This document shows, piece after piece, positions 24,414 to 33,184 of a stretch of DNA of 64,000 nt (position 1 is the stretch's first letter; each line of letters starts with the position of its first letter). Both the position numbers and the translations under genes were made by a program. The notes below the pieces were generated by a model. That model ran no database searches, was not told the origin of the DNA, and saw only the letters and a program-made list of their open reading frames with translations. The stretch comes from Prosthecobacter vanneervenii (GTDB lineage Bacteria > Verrucomicrobiota > Verrucomicrobiia > Verrucomicrobiales > Verrucomicrobiaceae). Where the stretch lies: contig NZ_JACHIG010000003.1 of NCBI RefSeq assembly GCF_014203095.1, positions 62,001-126,000 of the forward strand, read 5' to 3'.

Positions 24414-24441
24414 AGGGGGGGATGGAGCGTTTTGCGATGCT

Positions 24442-26874
24442 TCAAATCCTCGACGCCAAAAGCTCGCGTAGACTCAGCACTCTGGGATCGGCTAATCGGT
24501 TGCCCAGTGTTTTCTTGCGGTAAGACCGTCGTGCCTCGTAGTCTTCCAGTTTTTTCCCAAGCTCGACGCCATCCCACTTCTTCCCGTCAAAAGCATGATC
24601 TGGCTCCACTTCGAAGATGGCATAAATTTCGCCGCTGGCTGCACCGGGGTAGCCGCTGCCTTTCAAGTCATTCGCAGTGAATACTCTGTATCCCGGCTTG
24701 GAGTCCTTCAGCCGCAGCAGGCCATCGGCCACCTTTCGCTTATGAGTGAACAGAAGCACATGCCGGGCACTCGCAAACTCAGGAGAAACATTCCACGATC
24801 CAGGTCGATCTCCCAGTCTCACCACAGCAAACCCACTCTTCAGAGTCCATTCCAGCTGCTCGGGGCTGTTATACCATGCCACTACCACATGATGTTCAGC
24901 AGGCGGCAGCGCACGCCCCGTGTCACTCATTTCATCGCGTTCAGCGAGCACCAGGTTGCCATACGGCACTGGAGCTTCGTGCAATTTATATGATTCCGCT
25001 GTGTGGAAAGTCGCACGTTCGCGGGCTGTCGTCCGGTTGGAGAGATGCTCGATCACTTCATCCAAGAAAATTCGCAATGCCTCCATGCCATCCGCTGTAC
25101 CATCACTGCGAGGGCGGATGGCAAAAGCACCCAGCCCCGGCAGCACTTCATGGAAACCTTCAAACTCCGCAAACTTCTTCCCATCACCTGGCATGCCGGG
25201 ATAGAGGACATAGGCACCAGCAGAGCGGCGGATAGCATCGCGATAGGCGTGCATCTTGAGCAGGTCAGCATATTTTGCCGCCGTAGGCGGGGACTTCTCG
25301 GTTGCGGCGCGGTCTTGGATGAAGTCATCGTCCTCTTCACTGCCGAACATCACCTGAACATTCTCCACGCGATACTTTGCATCAAAATGGACGTGCACCA
25401 ACATGTCGCAGGCTTCCGCTTCATTCCTGTCGAACTCCGCAGGCCAAATCGTGATTGTGTAATCCGGCTGAACCCCCCGCGTCCAGCTTCCGCCTTTCTG
25501 ATGGTCACGATTGCGAGCAAATTTCTTATTGAAATGAAACTCCGCTTTCAGGGTCCGCTTTGCCGAGGCCGACAAAGCACCACCGATAGGCGATTGTAAC
25601 TCGATGCCTCGCTGGAGCTTTAGACGCGGCAATCCTGCATCCTTTTCCACCAAGACCGAATGCAGCGGAGCCGTGCATTCGAACTTGCTACGGAACAGCG
25701 CCTCAAGTTGGAAGAACAGCCAATACTCGTAGAGCGTAGCAACATTCCGCGCCCCGCCACGCCAAATTTCGTTTCCACCATCCCAGGCAAGCTGCGCGCC
25801 CACATGGAACTGCAGCCACAGATTCAATATCTCACGATAGCCAGGCTTGCGTTGCAGCACCGGACTACCTAGGGGCAGCAGTTCAGGTCGTGATACATCA
25901 GGAAGAAAGCCACGTCCTAGCAGCGTATCCAGCCGACTGCGCAAACGTGCCACTTCACGCAGCAAACGTACGTTGTCCGTATTAACCGCATCCGTCGCAT
26001 CTCGACCCAGCATTCCTGCAACCTCCGCAAGGAAGTCGCGAAACTCCACCAACACCATCTTCACAAAGCGGTTCTCCCCCGTGTCCAGAAAGTCCGTTCG
26101 CTTCATCACTTGAATTCGCACAGGCAAACTTGTCAGTGCCGGATGCATCGCACGAAGTGGATGCCCTTCTGGCAGCGCTATGCGGTCGCCAGCCTTGCCT
26201 AGTTGACGTACAAAATCTCGACCCGGTTTAAATGGGCGTGAAATCGACTGTTCCTGCGCCTCATTTTCCAGCAGGCGATGCGGATTTCGTAACACCTCAT
26301 CCACCGCGCCGCGAAACGCCACCGACTCAAGTGTGTGACGCAGAAACTCCAATTGCTGCTCCAACATCGCTCGGTTGTCCTTCCATGCCGACGACAACCG
26401 CAGCCGCGTTGGTGCCCGGCTGTCCAGAAGCAAACCCATGCACTTTTCTGCGATACAGTTCAGCATCCCACGATAATGCTCGCGATAGCGCAACTTGATC
26501 GAGCGCACCTCAACCGCTCCGCACGCCACCACCTCATTTCCGCGCATCAGTTTCAGCGGCAGCACCCCGCATTGATCGCCCGGCTCGATCAACCCGCCTC
26601 CATCGCCTGCTGGGCTCGCCGACACACCACGCTCCTCTGAGAGCGAAAGCCCCGCATCACCTACGATCTTGTAAAGGTAGCGCCCACGCTCCCGCAGTTG
26701 CACTGACTCCTCATTTTGCGCTTCGGCCTCTGCTTCACTCAAGCGAATCAGGTCTGCAGCCTCGCCCGTAGCCCCTTTGTCCTTGCGCGTACTCCAGATC
26801 ATCACCTTCGCCACCTCACGGCCCTGATCATTACGACAGGACACAGTCACTGGGTTTTGTGCTTCCGCAGGCAT
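24442..26874 (-). CDS. DUF2357 nuclease subunit of defence operon
   Basis: An 810-residue protein, last in the operon. Residues about 110-400 are a DUF2357-type helical region, with the family TGENRFVK at 265-272 and LYEYWLFFQLE at 381-391. A PD-(D/E)XK nuclease core follows: PDY at 470-472, the catalytic DAKYR at 498-502, and the supporting helix MHAYRDAI at 541-548. From about 660 to 810 there is a separate domain (HHVVVAWYNSPEQLEW, then GYRVFTANDL and YAIFEVEP) that resembles PUA/EVE-type modified-base readers only loosely. It would be the DNA-cleaving partner of the McrB-like ATPase. The start is 3 bases after the upstream stop. No signal peptide or membrane segment. Confidence 0.85.
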   Translation of the reverse strand: MPAEAQNPVTVSCRNDQGREVAKVMIWSTRKDKGATGEAADLIRLSEAEAEAQNEESVQLRERGRYLYKIVGDAGLSLSEERGVSASPAGDGGGLIEPGDQCGVLPLKLMRGNEVVACGAVEVRSIKLRYREHYRGMLNCIAEKCMGLLLDSRAPTRLRLSSAWKDNRAMLEQQLEFLRHTLESVAFRGAVDEVLRNPHRLLENEAQEQSISRPFKPGRDFVRQLGKAGDRIALPEGHPLRAMHPALTSLPVRIQVMKRTDFLDTGENRFVKMVLVEFRDFLAEVAGMLGRDATDAVNTDNVRLLREVARLRSRLDTLLGRGFLPDVSRPELLPLGSPVLQRKPGYREILNLWLQFHVGAQLAWDGGNEIWRGGARNVATLYEYWLFFQLEALFRSKFECTAPLHSVLVEKDAGLPRLKLQRGIELQSPIGGALSASAKRTLKAEFHFNKKFARNRDHQKGGSWTRGVQPDYTITIWPAEFDRNEAEACDMLVHVHFDAKYRVENVQVMFGSEEDDDFIQDRAATEKSPPTAAKYADLLKMHAYRDAIRRSAGAYVLYPGMPGDGKKFAEFEGFHEVLPGLGAFAIRPRSDGTADGMEALRIFLDEVIEHLSNRTTARERATFHTAESYKLHEAPVPYGNLVLAERDEMSDTGRALPPAEHHVVVAWYNSPEQLEWTLKSGFAVVRLGDRPGSWNVSPEFASARHVLLFTHKRKVADGLLRLKDSKPGYRVFTANDLKGSGYPGAASGEIYAIFEVEPDHAFDGKKWDGVELGKKLEDYEARRSYRKKTLGNRLADPRVLSLRELLASRI

Positions 26875-26877
26875 CGG

Positions 26878-28371
26878 TCACGCTTCGGCAAAGGTCACAA
26901 ACTGATCTCGCACCAGCTTCTGGTGCATTCTGAGAATTTTATCAAAGCTCAGAGGAAAGCGCGCTTGCCCCCTTGAGACCGTAAGCTTCTTGGCCACGGA
27001 ATCGGGAGAACGCGCATCATCCTCAGCCTCACCCGCTAACGCACAGGCTTTCAGGTAATCTTCTGCACGCTGCGTCCCACGTGGCGTCCCACATGCGTAT
27101 GCTAGTGCCCACAGCAGGCCTTCCAATTTCGTGCGGCTGCCATGCAGCTTCGGCAATAGCTTTTGCACTATCACCGCATCCATTGCAGGCTCAAACCACG
27201 TGGCATCTGCCTCCTCATGTCCGCCCAGTTCTTTGTAGAAGTGGATGAACCGCCCTGCTTCGTAGCTTGTACGGTAGCCAAACTCTGCGTGGTGCTTTTG
27301 CAGCAGGGTAAAAAAAAGCAGCATTTCTTCCTTAAAGCGGTCCTTCACCTCTGCTGGCACCGTGATTCGCTTGTTTGCCGCAAGTGCCACGAAGCCGGGA
27401 CCGAAAACCGCCCCCTTTCCGTCCAGTTCTTCCAAACGCACCGCTTGGGGAGATTCCAGAAACGCAGCGATCTCAGCCGCCTCCATACGGAACTCGATCA
27501 CGTTCGCCCGGTCTAGCACCTTGGGTGAGAACATGTAAGTCGTTTCATCAACATTCACAGTACCGATAATGAAGAGATTCGACGGCAACTTAGTGGATTG
27601 CGGCACAGACTCTCCGTTCCCCTTTCGCTCAGCATCTTGATGCAATGGAATCGCCTCGTCAGACTCGATAGCGGACAGGATATCGGCAAAATACCGCTCT
27701 ACATGAGAAAGATTCATCTCGTCTAAAATCAGGAAATGCGGTGTGCCAGAATTCTCAGGCTTGGCGGCACGCAGAATCAAATCCAGAGCGGCACGCGACA
27801 CATAACGACCCGCATCAATCCCATCAGCATATCCAAGGATTGCATCAGTTCCGGTCCAATCCGCGCCAACAGGAATCAACACATGAGCTGTGTTCTGTGG
27901 GTCATCCGCAACATGACTTAGCCACCGGGCGAAGGCTTGGGCAAGTTTAGTTTTGCCCGACCCCGCCAACCCAGTCAAAACAAGGAAACGTTTTGCTAAC
28001 AAAGACGCTAGTAGCCGCTTGACGCGCCCTTCACCTACCGCCATCACCGCTGTACAATCGTTATTGAATACAGCCAGCAAGTTTCCTGCTTCGAGCGCCA
28101 TACCAGCTTGCTCGGCATCATCAGCTTGAGCGAATCTATATTCGGGCACTTTACTTCCAGCTCGCTTTTCAGTCGCCGCATTGCGGATCTTTCCGGTGGG
28201 AACAATATATCCTTTTCGCGTTAGTTTTACCACAGCACCAGGGCGGCGAGTGCTAGGCACTTCTTCATCCGCATAAGCCCAGATCTGGTCCACGCTGAAC
28301 GTGGCGTCTGCGCCTATTTCTTCCTTCATTTTTGCAAGCGCCTGTTGCGCAATTTCAAATGGTTCGGACAT
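26878..28371 (-). CDS. McrB-like AAA+ ATPase
   Basis: A 497-residue motor subunit. Residues 1-80 form a small domain with a winged-helix-like pattern (TFSVDQIWAYADEEVPS, then KLTRKGYIVPTGK) that may contact DNA or the methyltransferase. The AAA+ core has Walker A GLAGSGKT (134-141), the McrB-family GADWTGTDAILGY (169-181), Walker B FLILDEMN (213-220) and the sensor/arginine-finger block TVNVDETTYMFSPKVLDRAN (271-290). McrB relatives are GTPases or ATPases that translocate DNA and drive a nuclease. It is separated by 4 and 3 bases from its neighbours, so the three genes are one transcript. Confidence 0.92.
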   Translation of the reverse strand: MSEPFEIAQQALAKMKEEIGADATFSVDQIWAYADEEVPSTRRPGAVVKLTRKGYIVPTGKIRNAATEKRAGSKVPEYRFAQADDAEQAGMALEAGNLLAVFNNDCTAVMAVGEGRVKRLLASLLAKRFLVLTGLAGSGKTKLAQAFARWLSHVADDPQNTAHVLIPVGADWTGTDAILGYADGIDAGRYVSRAALDLILRAAKPENSGTPHFLILDEMNLSHVERYFADILSAIESDEAIPLHQDAERKGNGESVPQSTKLPSNLFIIGTVNVDETTYMFSPKVLDRANVIEFRMEAAEIAAFLESPQAVRLEELDGKGAVFGPGFVALAANKRITVPAEVKDRFKEEMLLFFTLLQKHHAEFGYRTSYEAGRFIHFYKELGGHEEADATWFEPAMDAVIVQKLLPKLHGSRTKLEGLLWALAYACGTPRGTQRAEDYLKACALAGEAEDDARSPDSVAKKLTVSRGQARFPLSFDKILRMHQKLVRDQFVTFAEA

Positions 28372-28375
28372 AGCG

Positions 28376-29710
28376 TTAAATGTGTTCGTCTAGATGCACT
28401 GCCACTGTATTTCCAATTGCACGCGCCAGAAGAGGAGGCACGGCTTCGCCAATCATATCTAAGCCAACACCAAGATTATCGGTGGCTCTCTTTTCATCGT
28501 CTGACGTGTGAAATGTAAACGAGTCATCGAAGCTCTGCAGTCTCGCAGCTTCTCTGATTGTGATGCCTCGGTTCATCTCGGGATGCGTGAATCTACCCGA
28601 ACCGAGGAAATTAGCGTTAGCCGTGATTGTTAATGCCGGACGATCCCACGCCAGCCTTGTGTAAGCGCTCCAATAGTAGCGCTTGTAAAAAACGGGGATG
28701 ATTCGCCCTTCGGCTTCCAATCGCTTACGAGCCTGCTTTTCGGTTTCGCCACTGGCGACCGCATTTGCTACCAGCTTCTCATAGCGTTTCTGTAATCGTG
28801 CACTGGCGTCGTCCCAAGTCTCCCCCTGACGCATCTCCTTTATGATCTCGATAACTTGGCGCTGATAGCTGCGGGTGATATGGTTGTATGCAAACTGCTT
28901 CGAAGTTCTCATCAGCTTGGCAAACGCATTGTCTGCCTTTTTGGTGTACCCCCCCTTGCTCCCTCCCAAAGACTCATGCAATGGCGCATCATAAGGCAGG
29001 TCACTGATGGCGTCTTGCACAGTGACCCAAGGCTGACCATTCCATCCTGCGAGTAATTCAGGGTCGCCGTGGGTTTGCACGGGGAGTGTTAAAGGACCTA
29101 GGCGGGAAGCCACAATGACTGCTCGCTGGCGAAGCTGGGGCACACCGTAATCTGCCGCATTTAGAATGCCGCATGACACCTTGTAGCCCATCTCAATTAA
29201 TATCTCTTCGACCTGTTGAGCGATCCCTCCCTTCTTGCCGTCGTGATAATGGCTTAGAAATTGAGGCACATTTTCAATGACTACCACTTTAGGGTTGAGT
29301 GCCGCAGCAACCTCGAGGAACCGTAGCACCAAATCATTGCGGGGGTCTTGATCGAGTTTGTTGTAGCCACCAAACGACACGATTTCCGAATCCTTCCGCG
29401 CCTCCGTTCGCCTCATCTGAGAAAAGCCTTGGCAGGGAGGTCCCCCAATCAGGCAATCAAGCGTTTCAATGCCTTTAGCGGTAATCAAGGCTTTAATTTT
29501 TCTGTCTGGCACATCTCGAATATCTCCCAAAATCGTAGCGGGCACATGCTCACCGTGGGAGTGGTTCTTTTCGAAAGTTTTGAGGGCAAATTTCTTGACG
29601 TCATTTCCCAAAACGGTTTGGAACCTGCCGGTCCGCCAGAACCCATGTGAAAAGCCTCCACAGCCACAGAACAGCTCCGCTACAGTATATGATTTTGATG
29701 GTTGAACCAT
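28376..29710 (-). CDS. DNA (cytosine-5) methyltransferase
   Basis: A C5 cytosine methyltransferase with all major motifs: I (AELFCGCGGF), IV (GGPPCQGFSQ, catalytic Cys), VI (ENVPQF), VIII (QLRQRAVIVASR), IX (RPALTITANANF) and X (GNTVAV). The target-recognition region lies between VIII and IX and is about 150 residues long, so it probably recognises one specific sequence. I prefer the ATG at 29710 (444 residues, MVQPSKSYTVAELF); extending to 29770 needs a TTG start and adds 20 residues without family support. It is first in the operon with the ATPase and nuclease, so it likely protects host DNA from them. Confidence 0.93.
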   Translation of the reverse strand: MVQPSKSYTVAELFCGCGGFSHGFWRTGRFQTVLGNDVKKFALKTFEKNHSHGEHVPATILGDIRDVPDRKIKALITAKGIETLDCLIGGPPCQGFSQMRRTEARKDSEIVSFGGYNKLDQDPRNDLVLRFLEVAAALNPKVVVIENVPQFLSHYHDGKKGGIAQQVEEILIEMGYKVSCGILNAADYGVPQLRQRAVIVASRLGPLTLPVQTHGDPELLAGWNGQPWVTVQDAISDLPYDAPLHESLGGSKGGYTKKADNAFAKLMRTSKQFAYNHITRSYQRQVIEIIKEMRQGETWDDASARLQKRYEKLVANAVASGETEKQARKRLEAEGRIIPVFYKRYYWSAYTRLAWDRPALTITANANFLGSGRFTHPEMNRGITIREAARLQSFDDSFTFHTSDDEKRATDNLGVGLDMIGEAVPPLLARAIGNTVAVHLDEHI

Positions 29711-29875
29711 TTTTGACTGATGTTTTAGGCGGGTCAAACTAGCGCTCAGGACTTCTGTGTCACAACACAAAATGTTTCACAACCACTCATGCTGAGTGTG
29801 GCGACGGAATCAGTCGCACATACGGGTTGCTTTTGATACTGGTGCAGCTGCCTGCTGACGTGTGGCGGAGTGGTG

Positions 29876-30010
29876 GGAAGACGCTGCTAGAGAGCGCGGG
29901 GTGTAAAGGAAGCGCTGGCTTTGCTCTCCGGATTTGGGGCGACTTTCCAGGGGTGGCGCTCGCTGCGCGAACTTACCCCTGGCTACCGGCTGCATCCCCT
30001 CCGGGGATGA
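29876..30010 (+). repeat. Intergenic repeat, copy A
   Basis: A ~135-bp element beginning GGAAGACGCTGCT, similar to 30350-30487 in the same orientation. It contains a long hairpin with CCAGGGGT and ACCCCTGG arms (29947-29982) and a short one, CATCCCCTCCGGGGATG. The arms are conserved between copies while the loop differs, as in REP-like elements. It occupies most of the gap upstream of the methyltransferase. Confidence 0.7.
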
Positions 30011-30017
30011 GAGAGCT

Positions 30018-30251
30018 TCACGCCTGACGCCGGGCTGAGAAGTGGGCTAGAAATTCCTGATGGCTGATCTCTTGGGAGGGGTCTTGGTCCATTTCGGTCT
30101 CGCGCTGGTTGAGCAGGGTTTCGAGCTCGTCTGGCGCGAGGTCATCGGCGGAAGTGCCGACGGAGTCCCATAGACCTGTGGCGACACGGCAGCGGTCGGC
30201 AGGGGTGAGCTGCAGGGCGGCATCCATGATGGCTTCGTAGGTGATGGACAT
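30018..30251 (-). CDS. Addiction-module antitoxin-like protein
   Basis: A 77-residue acidic protein, opening MSITYEAIMDAALQLTPADR, which fits the small putative addiction-module component family (TIGR02574 type) usually paired with a RelE/ParE toxin. No toxin frame of about 90-100 residues follows it on the minus strand: its stop is at 30018 and the next minus-strand gene is the methyltransferase 300 bases away. It is therefore an orphan or a relic. It sits between two direct copies of an intergenic repeat. Confidence 0.7.
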   Translation of the reverse strand: MSITYEAIMDAALQLTPADRCRVATGLWDSVGTSADDLAPDELETLLNQRETEMDQDPSQEISHQEFLAHFSARRQA

Positions 30252-30349
30252 GGGTGATTGTAAACCGGAAAGGAGAGAGAGACAACCGGGAGGTGGCGGG
30301 TGGTCGGTGGTGGGGCTTTTGAAAGCGTTGTGATTGTGGCGGTGGGGCT

Positions 30350-30487
30350 GGAAGACGCTGCTGGAGGGCGCGGTGTGAGAAGGGAGCTCTGGGTTTGCTA
30401 CCCGGATTGGTGGCGTGGATTTCCAGGGGTGGTCGCTCGTTCCTCGCTCGACCCCTGGCTACCTTCTTTGACCCCTCCGGGGTCCTG
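30350..30487 (+). repeat. Intergenic repeat, copy B
   Basis: Second copy of the element at 29876-30010, with the same opening (GGAAGACGCTGCT) and a hairpin CCAGGGGT/ACCCCTGG at 30423-30458, then GACCCCTCCGGGGTC at 30470-30484. The region 30252-30775 has no gene apart from these repeats and the palindromes listed next. Confidence 0.7.
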
Positions 30488-30576
30488 ATCTAGTGGCTGC
30501 GCCATTGTGGGAAGGAGTGACCGCATCACTTGGAGTGCGTCATTGTTAACGCGGAGTGTGTGGGAGTCGCGAAGCG

Positions 30577-30617
30577 CCGCACAGGGGATTGCCTTCGGCT
30601 GGCTTCGCGTTGTGCGG
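30577..30617. repeat. Degenerate CCGCACA palindrome
   Basis: CCGCACAG and TGTGCGG arms are separated by about 26 bases, followed by TACTATGCTAGGGCG, which resembles the tail of the tidy element at 30710. It looks like a diverged or interrupted copy of the same repeat. Confidence 0.5.
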
Positions 30618-30709
30618 ACGTACTATGCTAGGGCGTTTGTGGGAGCCGGAGAGGGGGCTGTGGGTTCTGCGTGAGGGGTGAGTGACTCGTGGGTCAGGGG
30701 CGTGGCGAG

Positions 30710-30729
30710 CCGCACAGAGGACTGTGCGG
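30710..30729. repeat. Dispersed palindromic element, single copy
   Basis: CCGCACAGAGGACTGTGCGG, a perfect 8-bp stem with AGGA loop, followed by ACCACTATGCTGGCGC. The same core is repeated five times at 43411-43810 and occurs once at 57573-57592. Confidence 0.85.
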
Positions 30730-30775
30730 ACCACTATGCTGGCGCATTCGCGATGCGCCATAATGCTTCCACGCC

Positions 30776-33184
30776 TTATTTGGCGGGGAGGATCTGGACG
30801 GCGTCTAAGTGCACGTTTCCGCCGGCGTTGGTGGTGCGGAAAATCACTGCGGACTCTTCACCTGCATTGAACTTGTAAGTGCCCAAGCTGTAAGCGCCTT
30901 GGGGGTCTTTGGGGGACTTGGTTTGATCGACGGTGACTTGTTTTTCGCCGTCGGCGGTGAGGAGGGTGATGGGGGCGGATTTGGCGCGGTTTTCGTGGGG
31001 CTGGAAGTAGATGCGGACTTCGTAGCTGCCCGTTTGTTTCACGCTGAAGGGGAAGCGGGCGCTGGCGGCTTTGTCGCTGCTGTAGCTGTAGTGGTTGCCG
31101 ACGTAGGGCTTGAGGCCTTCGCCGTGGGTCCATTTGCCGGTGAACTCGGCTTCGGTGTCGTCGATGACGATGCCTTCGAGCTTTTTGGGGTCGATGCTGT
31201 CGGCGGAGGAGCCGGGAGGGGGGAGGTCGGGGAGTTTTTTGGCGTTGGCGGGGAGGTAGAGATTTCCTTCGAGGGTGTCGCGGCGCATGGCGCCGGGCTG
31301 TGACATGAGGTCTTTGAGGATGTCGAGGTACTGCTCGTAGACGCCGCGGGGGGTGGTGTGATGGCGGACGCAGATCCAGGCGGCTTTGCCGACGACTTCT
31401 CCCATCATGCCGCAGGTGCGCATGACGCGGGTGGAGCCGAGGGCGTGGCGCTCGACGGAGATGGTGCGGCCGGCCATGAAGAGATTGCCGATGTCTTTGC
31501 TGTAGAAGCAGCGGTAGGGGACGGGGTAGCCGTTTTTGCGGTCGGTGTGCTTGCCGAATTCGGCGCGGGAGATGAAGGGATTGTCGGGGAAGTTTTTGGC
31601 GTACTGCTCTTTGGGATAGTGCAGGTCCTGGTCCCAGGTGGTGGGGACGCAGCCGTCGGGATGGATGATGCCTTTGACCATGTCTTCGCCATTGAGGATC
31701 ATATCTCCAACGATGCGGCGGGATTCGCGGGGGCCGCCGATGTAGGCGAGCCAGGTGAGGTCGAAGTCGGCGTATTTTTCGGCCTTGAGGGTTTTGAGGG
31801 CGGAGACGGCTCCGTAAACGGCGCGGAAGTTGTGGTCGCGGATGAGCTCGAGGTCGTTGAGGGGGTGCTTGTCGAAGCCGCTTTCCCAGAACCACTCGCC
31901 GTGGACGTAGTCTTCGGGGGCGGGTGTGGGGGTGTAGCCGAGGTCGTAGCCTTTCATGTTTTCGGCGTTCTTTTTGCCGACGGGGGCGAGGGCTTTGGGC
32001 TCAGGGAAGTCTTCCAATGTGAGGGGGAGGGCCCAGGGGGTGGCGGGCCAGGTGACGGGGTGCTTCAAATTCTGCATGACCCACATGTTGCTCATGCCCA
32101 TACGGCCTTTTTCTTCCATCATGAACTCGGCTCCGGCGAGGGCGCCGACGCTGCCGTGGCCGGTGCAGTCCACGAAGAGCTTGCCGAGGAAGCGGGTTTC
32201 TTTGCCGGTTTTGGTGTCGAGGCCGATGACGGAGCGGATGGTGTGGGTGGGTTTGCCGGAGGCTGAGGCGGAACCGGAGGCAACCGGGACGGTTGCGCTA
32301 CTTGTCATCTCGACGCCGTAAACGTGGGTATTGAGGAAGAGCTGGATCGTTTTCTCGGCTTTGACGGTGTCTTCCTTGAGCTTGTCATTAAACTCCTGGG
32401 GGGAGGCGGCGGGGCTGTTGCTGGCGCGGTCGGCGAACTCTTCGACGATCTCGCCGAGGTGGGGGTAGAGGCCGCGGCGGGTGCCTCCCATGGCCCAGAC
32501 CTGGATCTCGCTGGAGCCGTTGCCACCGAGGACGGGGCGATTTTGGATGAAGGCGACCTTGAGGCCCTGGCGTGCGCCGGAGATGGCGGCGCCCATGCCG
32601 GAGTAGCCGCCGCCGATGACGACGAGGTCGAACTCGGAGGTCTCGGGAGCTTTCTCTGGGAGGCCGAGGAGCTGACGGCGGAGCTTATTGGTAGCGGCGA
32701 GGTCGGCGGGCGGGGTGAAGTCTTCGCCGTCTTTGGCGAGGATGAGGGCGTCGATGCGGCCATCGAAGCCGGTGAGGTCGTGGAGGGCGAGGGTGGCCTT
32801 GCCGCCGGAGAGTTTGACGGGTCCGGCTTTTTCCCACTGCCAGTCTTTGCCGGTGGTGCCGAATTCGTGGTCGAGGGTGGTGCCGTTGACGGTGATCTGG
32901 AAGCGCCCGGGGGCGCCGGTGGCATTGAAGGGGGCGACCCAGTTTTTGGTGCGGGCCCAGAGGGTGTAGGTGCCGGCGGGGAGCTCGATGCTGGTGGTGG
33001 CGTCTTTGACGGGCTTGCCCATGCCGTGGGCCATAAGGTAGGGGGAGCCCATGATGTCGATAAACTGGGTGTCGAGGACCCAGCCGCCGGGGGAGGAGAA
33101 GGATTCGGCCTCAAGCCAGAGGGGCTGCGCGTGGGCCGCAGCGGCGGTGAGGGTGAGGAGGGTGGCGAGGAGGGCGGATTTCAT
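30776..33184 (-). CDS. Exported FAD-dependent oxidoreductase, golvesin-tailed
   Basis: An 802-residue exported protein with signal peptide (MKSALLATLLTLTAAAAHA), a carbohydrate-binding-like beta domain (about 22-155), an FAD-binding oxidoreductase domain opening FDLVVIGGGYSGMGAAISGA, and a C-terminal golvesin/xanthan-lyase-type beta domain (about 670-802, YVGNHYSYSSDKAASARF). Such proteins are frequent in PVC bacteria and are thought to act on carbohydrate-derived substrates in the periplasm. I took the ATG at 33184; the frame runs open for 89 more residues upstream but that part is low-complexity and Pro/Ser-rich. It has strong C bias on its coding strand. Confidence 0.82.
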   Translation of the reverse strand: MKSALLATLLTLTAAAAHAQPLWLEAESFSSPGGWVLDTQFIDIMGSPYLMAHGMGKPVKDATTSIELPAGTYTLWARTKNWVAPFNATGAPGRFQITVNGTTLDHEFGTTGKDWQWEKAGPVKLSGGKATLALHDLTGFDGRIDALILAKDGEDFTPPADLAATNKLRRQLLGLPEKAPETSEFDLVVIGGGYSGMGAAISGARQGLKVAFIQNRPVLGGNGSSEIQVWAMGGTRRGLYPHLGEIVEEFADRASNSPAASPQEFNDKLKEDTVKAEKTIQLFLNTHVYGVEMTSSATVPVASGSASASGKPTHTIRSVIGLDTKTGKETRFLGKLFVDCTGHGSVGALAGAEFMMEEKGRMGMSNMWVMQNLKHPVTWPATPWALPLTLEDFPEPKALAPVGKKNAENMKGYDLGYTPTPAPEDYVHGEWFWESGFDKHPLNDLELIRDHNFRAVYGAVSALKTLKAEKYADFDLTWLAYIGGPRESRRIVGDMILNGEDMVKGIIHPDGCVPTTWDQDLHYPKEQYAKNFPDNPFISRAEFGKHTDRKNGYPVPYRCFYSKDIGNLFMAGRTISVERHALGSTRVMRTCGMMGEVVGKAAWICVRHHTTPRGVYEQYLDILKDLMSQPGAMRRDTLEGNLYLPANAKKLPDLPPPGSSADSIDPKKLEGIVIDDTEAEFTGKWTHGEGLKPYVGNHYSYSSDKAASARFPFSVKQTGSYEVRIYFQPHENRAKSAPITLLTADGEKQVTVDQTKSPKDPQGAYSLGTYKFNAGEESAVIFRTTNAGGNVHLDAVQILPAK

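Follow-up and report, generated by a model that had tools for sequence, protein, structure and literature searches.

Does a restriction operon with a methyltransferase of its own cut DNA that lacks its mark or DNA that bears foreign modifications, and how could such a system acquire a new specificity? These questions are raised by an operon of Prosthecobacter vanneervenii, located in a 64,000-nucleotide stretch hereafter called the window (NCBI RefSeq assembly GCF_014203095.1, contig NZ_JACHIG010000003.1, positions 62,001 to 126,000). Three intact, almost abutting genes on the minus strand at 24442-29710 encode a methyltransferase (P0001), a motor (P0002) and a nuclease (P0003), separated by gaps of 4 bp (methyltransferase/motor) and 3 bp (motor/nuclease). 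From comparisons with related loci, we consider it very probable that the operon is a restriction-modification system of the PcaRCI/LlaJI kind, which cuts unmethylated DNA and in which the reader domain and the methyltransferase are exchanged as one cassette. The sequence-only reading—a model's annotation made from the letters without database searches—had described the same three genes and spacing, and all of the open reading frames (ORFs) are in place. Its assignments of a C5 methyltransferase, a McrB-type ATPase and a DUF2357/PD-(D/E)XK nuclease are borne out by Pfam matches for all three proteins. The features on which the argument depends are:

28376..29710, minus strand: P0001, C5 cytosine DNA methyltransferase, 444 residues from ATG (Pfam DNA_methylase, E 3.9e-55)
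26878-28371, minus strand: P0002, McrB-like AAA+ motor, whole gene (Pfam AAA_22, E 2.4e-6)
28081..28371, minus strand: motor N-terminal domain (N-domain), residues 1-97, putative site-reading domain (no Pfam match; homologous to the L042 N-domain)
26878..28080, minus strand: McrB-like AAA+ core, the rest of P0002 including the stop (profile match of E. coli McrB, E 2e-5)
24442-26874, minus strand: P0003, DUF2357/PD-(D/E)XK nuclease, whole gene (Pfam)

Methyltransferases and motor N-domains across related loci

Which parts of the operon are shared with its relatives? The closest relatives of the motor-nuclease chassis are three loci from Verrucomicrobiota metagenome-assembled genomes (L023, L024 and L025), whose nucleases are 75, 71 and 70% identical to P0003, respectively. 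The motor cores of the window and these three loci are 54-81% identical among the four. These chassis mates carry four different methyltransferases: C5 enzymes in the window and L023, and N6/N4 enzymes in L024 and L025. The L023 enzyme is only 24% identical to P0001 over the whole length, and the two N6/N4 enzymes share 27% identity. The N-domains of the window, L023 and L024 give no mutual BLAST match at E values up to 10. The homology between the window and L023 starts within the motor gene (P0002 residue 105; DNA identity is detectable from 27741) and ends near the P0003 end. The L025 motor has no N-domain, and an extra gene of 198 residues (L025:5037-5633) lies between its methyltransferase and motor genes; the idea that this gene is a split-off reader related to the L024 N-domain is not supported (E 0.16; no Pfam match).

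The relatives of the methyltransferase and the N-domain are found together, on different motors. Between the window and L042 (Caballeronia plasmid pSBC2-5), the methyltransferases are 56% identical and the N-domains 40% over 79 residues (E 5e-16), while the cores share only 29%. The corresponding values for L023 and L036 are 58-59% (methyltransferase), 39% (N-domain) and 42% (core), and those for L024 against L101, L103 and L106 are 56-60%, 27% and 35-39%. Among 72,556 plasmid records, the sole match of the window N-domain (E at most 0.01) is in the gene next to the top-ranked match of P0001; this best methyltransferase match (56%, Caballeronia) is followed, among the matches listed, by enzymes of 32-33% identity. 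The phylum genomes provided no additional test of the pairing, because P0001 (E 1e-60, 387 genomes) and the N-domain (E 0.001, 276 genomes) matched only in the organism's own genome. The motor core is more widely distributed, with matches at E 1e-8 in 33 of 387 phylum genomes, and P0003 has matches at E 0.001 in 19 of 288, its own included. The later-found L128 combines an L024-type N-domain (E 5e-31) with a methyltransferase of the L024/L101 type (57-62%); it is a weak test of exchange, because its core is also nearest to that of L101.

In order to count such pairings, we entered 53 loci. A usable motor was obtained for 50, the exceptions being L038, L039 and L074, the last of which lacks Walker A. 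Methyltransferases, detected by means of a C5 profile plus six seeds for amino-methyltransferases—others may be missed—lie within 2.5 kb of the motor in 24 of the 50, and 21 of these also have an N-part of at least 60 residues; L025, L093 and L094, without a usable N-part, were left out of the pair counts. L037 and L077, with a C5 methyltransferase at about 4 and 5.5 kb, were counted as being without one, and where two methyltransferases are present (L027, L085 and L093), we used whichever gave the highest identity. N-homology was accepted at E up to 1e-3, and methyltransferase kinship at 50% identity or more. In the 210 pairs of the 21 loci, N-homology and methyltransferase kinship coincide in 15, are both absent in 195, and are discordant in none. 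Pairs with a core identity below 45% comprise 5 with both and 181 with neither, and those at or above 45% comprise 10 and 14, respectively. Removal of near-duplicate loci leaves 19 loci and 171 pairs, 9 of which show both; none of 20,000 label shuffles reached this number (maximum 4). The sequence-only reading had proposed listing the neighborhoods of homologues, and it is here, in the 21 loci, that the families of the methyltransferase and N-domain are seen to recur jointly on different motors.

The trees point in the same direction. The motor tree groups the window with L023, L024 and L025. In the methyltransferase tree, the window groups with L042 and a phage enzyme, and L023 groups with L036; all three groupings are starred. 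These quick trees reject a forced grouping of the window methyltransferase with that of L023 (p 8e-36) and a forced grouping of the window core with that of L042 (p 2e-10). The conflict between the motor and methyltransferase trees is strong. Sequence comparison and trees both support the joint inheritance and exchange of the methyltransferase gene with the neighboring 5′ portion of the motor gene; the two would form a specificity cassette that sits on a conserved chassis of motor and nuclease. The relatives suggest that bacteria trade the marking enzyme along with its matching DNA-reading domain, as a single unit set on a common cutting machine.

The layout itself recurs in annotated genomes, with a C5 enzyme on Caballeronia, Deinococcus and Rhizobium plasmids, and with an amino-methyltransferase in Roseibium, Sinorhizobium and Thauera. 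Vsr mismatch-repair genes lie beside several C5-type operons (L042:7151-7534, L095, L098, L099 and L104). The L093 and L094 motors, whose neighboring amino-methyltransferases are 50% identical, lack an N-domain. In both, a long stretch is inserted between DEMN and NxD, and this may be a reader located within the motor.

Mode of action and its alternatives

How would the operon act, and on which DNA? The sequence-only reading had called the mode unknown; it becomes arguable from the relatives. The joint movement of the methyltransferase and the N-domain between different motors speaks for a system that restricts DNA unmethylated at a site common to both, rather than one that attacks foreign modifications. 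We propose the following scheme.

Marking and reading: P0001, judged by its family, would mark cytosines at a specific site in the organism's own DNA. The motor N-domain would bind the same site when it is unmethylated.

Cutting: By analogy with McrBC, LlaJI and PcaRCI, the McrB-like core would assemble into a ring that is powered by nucleotides and has the DUF2357 protein as its partner. The ring and its partner would translocate and cut as in McrBC, and the PD-(D/E)XK domain of P0003 would cleave the incoming unmethylated phage or plasmid DNA.

Exchange: The contiguous order of methyltransferase, N-domain, core and nuclease would let a single exchange replace both marking and reading.

A phage-borne relative of P0001 is consistent with this scheme. 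P0001 is 57% identical to an enzyme on the viral contig L129 (37.8 kb, with terminase and RecT-like genes; methyltransferase at L129:5641-7482) and 56% identical to the Caballeronia plasmid enzyme, in both cases over nearly the full length. In C5 methyltransferases, the recognition region sits between motifs of the C-terminal half, and the L129 enzyme and P0001 are also well conserved between the motifs there. No motor core or nuclease match accompanies the viral gene in the 13.3 kb of the contig examined. Such a lone methyltransferase is expected if the phage protects itself from a nuclease that spares methylated DNA, and the L129 gene is thus a candidate for counter-defense. Among 50,697 phage records, P0001 has matches in 609 (34% identity at best among the matches listed), and P0003 has none.

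Do related motors carry readers for modified bases? A Pfam scan of 29 hand-chosen motors of the 50 found MrcB_N, which we take to be the Pfam name of the methylcytosine-reading N-domain of E. coli McrB, or EVE in none of the 17 with a methyltransferase detected within 2.5 kb and in 3 of the 12 without (L030, L073 and L102). L030 and L073, whose motors are related to that of the window and bear MrcB_N or MrcB_N plus EVE in front, suggest a role for these chassis in Type IV systems as well. An HNH gene adjoins the L030 motor.

Several points weigh against the proposed cassette-exchanging restriction system. The 50% cut was chosen after the pair list had been seen, and a 40% cut yields two discordant pairs, L032-L035 (46%) and L032-L076 (42%), in which kindred methyltransferases occur without N-homology; the N-homology of L035 and L076 themselves barely reaches the limit (E 0.001, 65 residues). 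The loci are relatives, rather than a random sample, and the shuffles ignore kinship. The 5 concordant pairs with low core identity amount to three independent links (window-L042, L023-L036, and L024 with three plasmids). Three of the 24 methyltransferase loci were dropped, among them L025 with its missing N-domain and extra gene. Between L024 and L101, conservation is lower in the N-domain (27%) than in the core (39%). The trees are quick ones, and both contain some long branches, including the L042 core. Finally, the split between modified-base readers and methyltransferases is not clean, as L102, with its EVE motor, adjoins an annotated N-6 methylase missed by the seeds.

Three other explanations have to be weighed. 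The motor-nuclease pair might operate in a Type IV mode, attacking foreign-modified DNA, with the methyltransferase as an independent or guard enzyme. The kinship of the window proteins with McrBC and the MrcB_N or EVE domains on L030, L073 and L102 fit this mode. However, the window N-domain has no Pfam match (an undescribed reader is possible) and pairs with one methyltransferase family across different chassis, and the same design acts on unmethylated DNA in PcaRCI (PMC8989522; here, as for the other papers cited, we refer to the part of the text available to us). We regard a Type IV mode as unlikely. A scenario without exchange, in which whole operons were inherited together and the cores diverged faster than the methyltransferases and N-domains, is very unlikely: the similar N-domain and core identities in L024-L101 (27/39%) and L023-L036 (39/42%) would suit it, yet the window, L023, L024 and L025 have different methyltransferases on cores of 54-81% identity, and both shared placements are rejected by the trees—that of the window and L023 under the models used here.

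The operon could also be mainly an addiction element or an abortive system, and less a barrier to DNA uptake. Restriction-modification systems have been described as selfish (PMC8989522), and a solo antitoxin-like ORF (PF09720) lies upstream of the operon. No ORF of at least 80 residues begins and ends within 29771-30775, so there is no toxin gene of that size beside it, and addiction is in any case compatible with restriction. As an account of the operon's main role, we judge it the least likely of the three.

The comparison of these loci indicates a way in which McrBC-like restriction systems might acquire a new specificity while the host survives. It yields a testable sequence rule, by which the methyltransferase could be predicted from the N-domain of the motor and the N-domain from the methyltransferase, and it points to natural components for restriction motors that can be re-targeted. 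The presence of modified-base readers instead on some related motors may find its explanation here too. We are somewhat inclined to a broader proposal: McrBC-like restriction motors would be a general chassis that accepts exchangeable cassettes—a methyltransferase gene plus the adjoining motor N-domain—so that the target site and even the mark chemistry (5-methylcytosine, 5mC, to N6/N4) could be switched in one recombination event. The gene order would keep the cassette contiguous; new host-safe specificities would then need a single step, and engineered swaps would be expected to function.

Proteins and genomic setting of the operon

The remaining features of the three genes and their surroundings are:

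27949..27972, minus strand: Walker A of P0002, GLAGSGKT, residues 134-141 (sequence motif)
27712..27726, minus strand: Walker B of P0002, LDEMN, residues 216-220 (sequence motif)
27547..27555, minus strand: NxD signature of P0002, N273-V274-D275 (invariant in 4 aligned motors)
25816..26595, minus strand: DUF2357 domain of P0003, residues 94-353 (PF09823, E 8.1e-33; in 17/17 aligned proteins)
25195..25737, minus strand: PD-(D/E)XK domain PDDEXK_7 of P0003, residues 380-560, motif PD...DAK (PF04411, E 3.6e-25; in 17/17 aligned proteins)
24442..25194, minus strand: C-terminal extension of P0003, residues 561-810 plus the stop (an extension is also present in aligned relatives)
24435..30775, edges approximate, no strand: inserted or variable block bearing the operon, between two convergent genes (flanking genes adjacent in L120, L121 and L123)

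The P0001 ORF can also start at a TTG (28376-29770, minus strand). The ATG at 29710 is the more likely start, because the aligned plasmid and phage relatives begin at about that position.

P0002 contains the GADWTG, LDEMN and VLDRAN motifs noticed in the sequence-only reading, and its McrB signature is N-V-D (NxD), in the context GTVNVDETT. The profile alignment of its core with E. coli McrB extends to the N of this motif. Its N-domain has no Pfam match, MrcB_N and EVE included. PADLOC, also proposed as a check, names P0002 only as PDC-M26A (E 4e-40) and gives P0003 no family name; NCBIfam has a family name for neither.

The P0003 residues P470-D471 and D498-A499-K500, which belong to the catalytic motif, do not vary among the 17 aligned proteins, the window one included. 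Its extra regions are residues 1-93 before DUF2357 and 561-810 after PDDEXK_7; the latter is the extra domain of the nuclease that the sequence-only reading had noticed. Residues 640-810 have no Pfam match with the limit set at E 10, where the HMMER filters drop most matches above about 0.1. Against solved structures, P0003 finds no match at E 1 alone and none that is credible with a 17-row profile. A DUF2357 match occurs once in its own genome and in none of 14 control genomes. The AlphaFold2 models are poor, with a mean predicted local distance difference test score of 45.2 for P0002 (4 rows) and 46.1 for P0003 (5 rows), and we claim no fold for the N-domain or the C-terminal extension. A winged helix and a PUA/EVE-like domain had been suspected from sequence patterns, and Pfam matches neither.

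How did the operon come to lie at this site? Genes for an ABC-3 permease and a FAD-oxidoreductase flank the block, and they are neighbors without the operon in three genomes of the same genus, where the spacing between the flanking-gene protein matches is 72 bp (L120), 59 bp (L121) and 76 bp (L123). In L118, also of this genus, about 1.8 kb of other sequence, including one copy of a dispersed repeat, lies between them. The comparison of the site rests on these four stretches; the FAD gene was not found in the other 7 of the 11 same-genus stretches, in all of which P0001, P0002 and P0003 have no match at E 1e-6. Judged from sequence, the operon block has been inserted at a junction where three genomes of the genus have the two flanking genes side by side. 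The G+C content is 0.51 for P0001, 0.53 for P0002 and 0.56 for P0003, as compared to 0.60 for the window outside 24442-30800.

Just outside the operon, the dispersed repeat of about 150 bp is present in two copies (29861-30006 and 30335-30482, 77% identical), and more copies occur in the same-genus stretches L117 and L118. The antitoxin-like ORF (77 residues, 30018-30251, minus strand) lies between the two copies and matches Unstab_antitox (PF09720, E 1.6e-6).

Comparison with known systems

The window operon shares with E. coli McrBC, a Type IV system, the architecture of a motor core plus a DUF2357-PD-(D/E)XK nuclease. In contrast, McrBC has no methyltransferase of its own, the N-domain of its McrB reads methylcytosine, and its motor bears the NxxD motif (PMC11090510), whereas the window operon holds a methyltransferase that travels with a motor N-domain lacking any MrcB_N or EVE match. 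With the NxD branch of McrBC relatives it shares NxD instead of NxxD, a methyltransferase nearby and extra parts on the McrC homologue (PMC11090510). Bell et al. (2024) report that many McrB-like proteins, including those of the NxD branch, are associated with DNA methyltransferases and defer the subject to a later paper, which may cover the present case; the available part of their text describes no cassette exchange for this branch (PMC11090510). CoCoNuT systems are marked by long coiled coils and RNA-directed accessory domains or genes; in a comparison by genes and Pfam domains, the window operon shows three genes only and no Pfam domain of that sort.

We found no description of cassette exchange between McrBC-like motors in our searches of an open-access library, covered mainly as titles and abstract openings, or in the available portions of PMC8989522, PMC11090510, PMC1459862, PMC12707154, PMC10059834 and PMC12458937. 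For Type I enzymes, the recombination of specificity modules is known (PMC12707154).

The kinship with McrBC and LlaJI seen in the sequence-only reading, and its design with one methyltransferase, proved correct. In LlaJI, from the Lactococcus plasmid pNP40, the McrB-like R1 is the sole specificity subunit and reads the site, R2 has a PD-(D/E)XK motif, and unmethylated DNA is the target (PMC1459862). LlaJI differs in its two 5mC methyltransferases for an asymmetric site, as compared to the one methyltransferase gene here. Its reader is of the B3 type, according to a review; the window N-domain has no Pfam match, and its structure model is poor. P0003 has no match to RE_LlaJI, the Pfam family of LlaJI R2, at E 0.01; the Caballeronia nuclease reaches E 0.0015 with 18.3 of the 23.6 bits required, below the cut-off.

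The proposal that the operon may be a new variant is weakened by PcaRCI of Pectobacterium carotovorum RC5297, although the parts had been named correctly. The methylation site of PcaRCI is CCNGG, and the system has been shown to restrict both plasmids and phages when these are unmethylated (PMC8989522). Like the window operon, it consists of an adjacent methyltransferase, McrB-like motor and DUF2357-PD-(D/E)XK nuclease, and its nuclease also has large extra N- and C-terminal regions; the window motor likewise has an N-domain unlike the reader of McrB. This likeness is one of architecture, as described in the available part of PMC8989522. At that level, a characterized system of the same design exists. 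The three-gene design is thus already known, with PcaRCI having the same parts and LlaJI working likewise, and the window operon adds a Verrucomicrobiota member to this characterized kind of restriction system.

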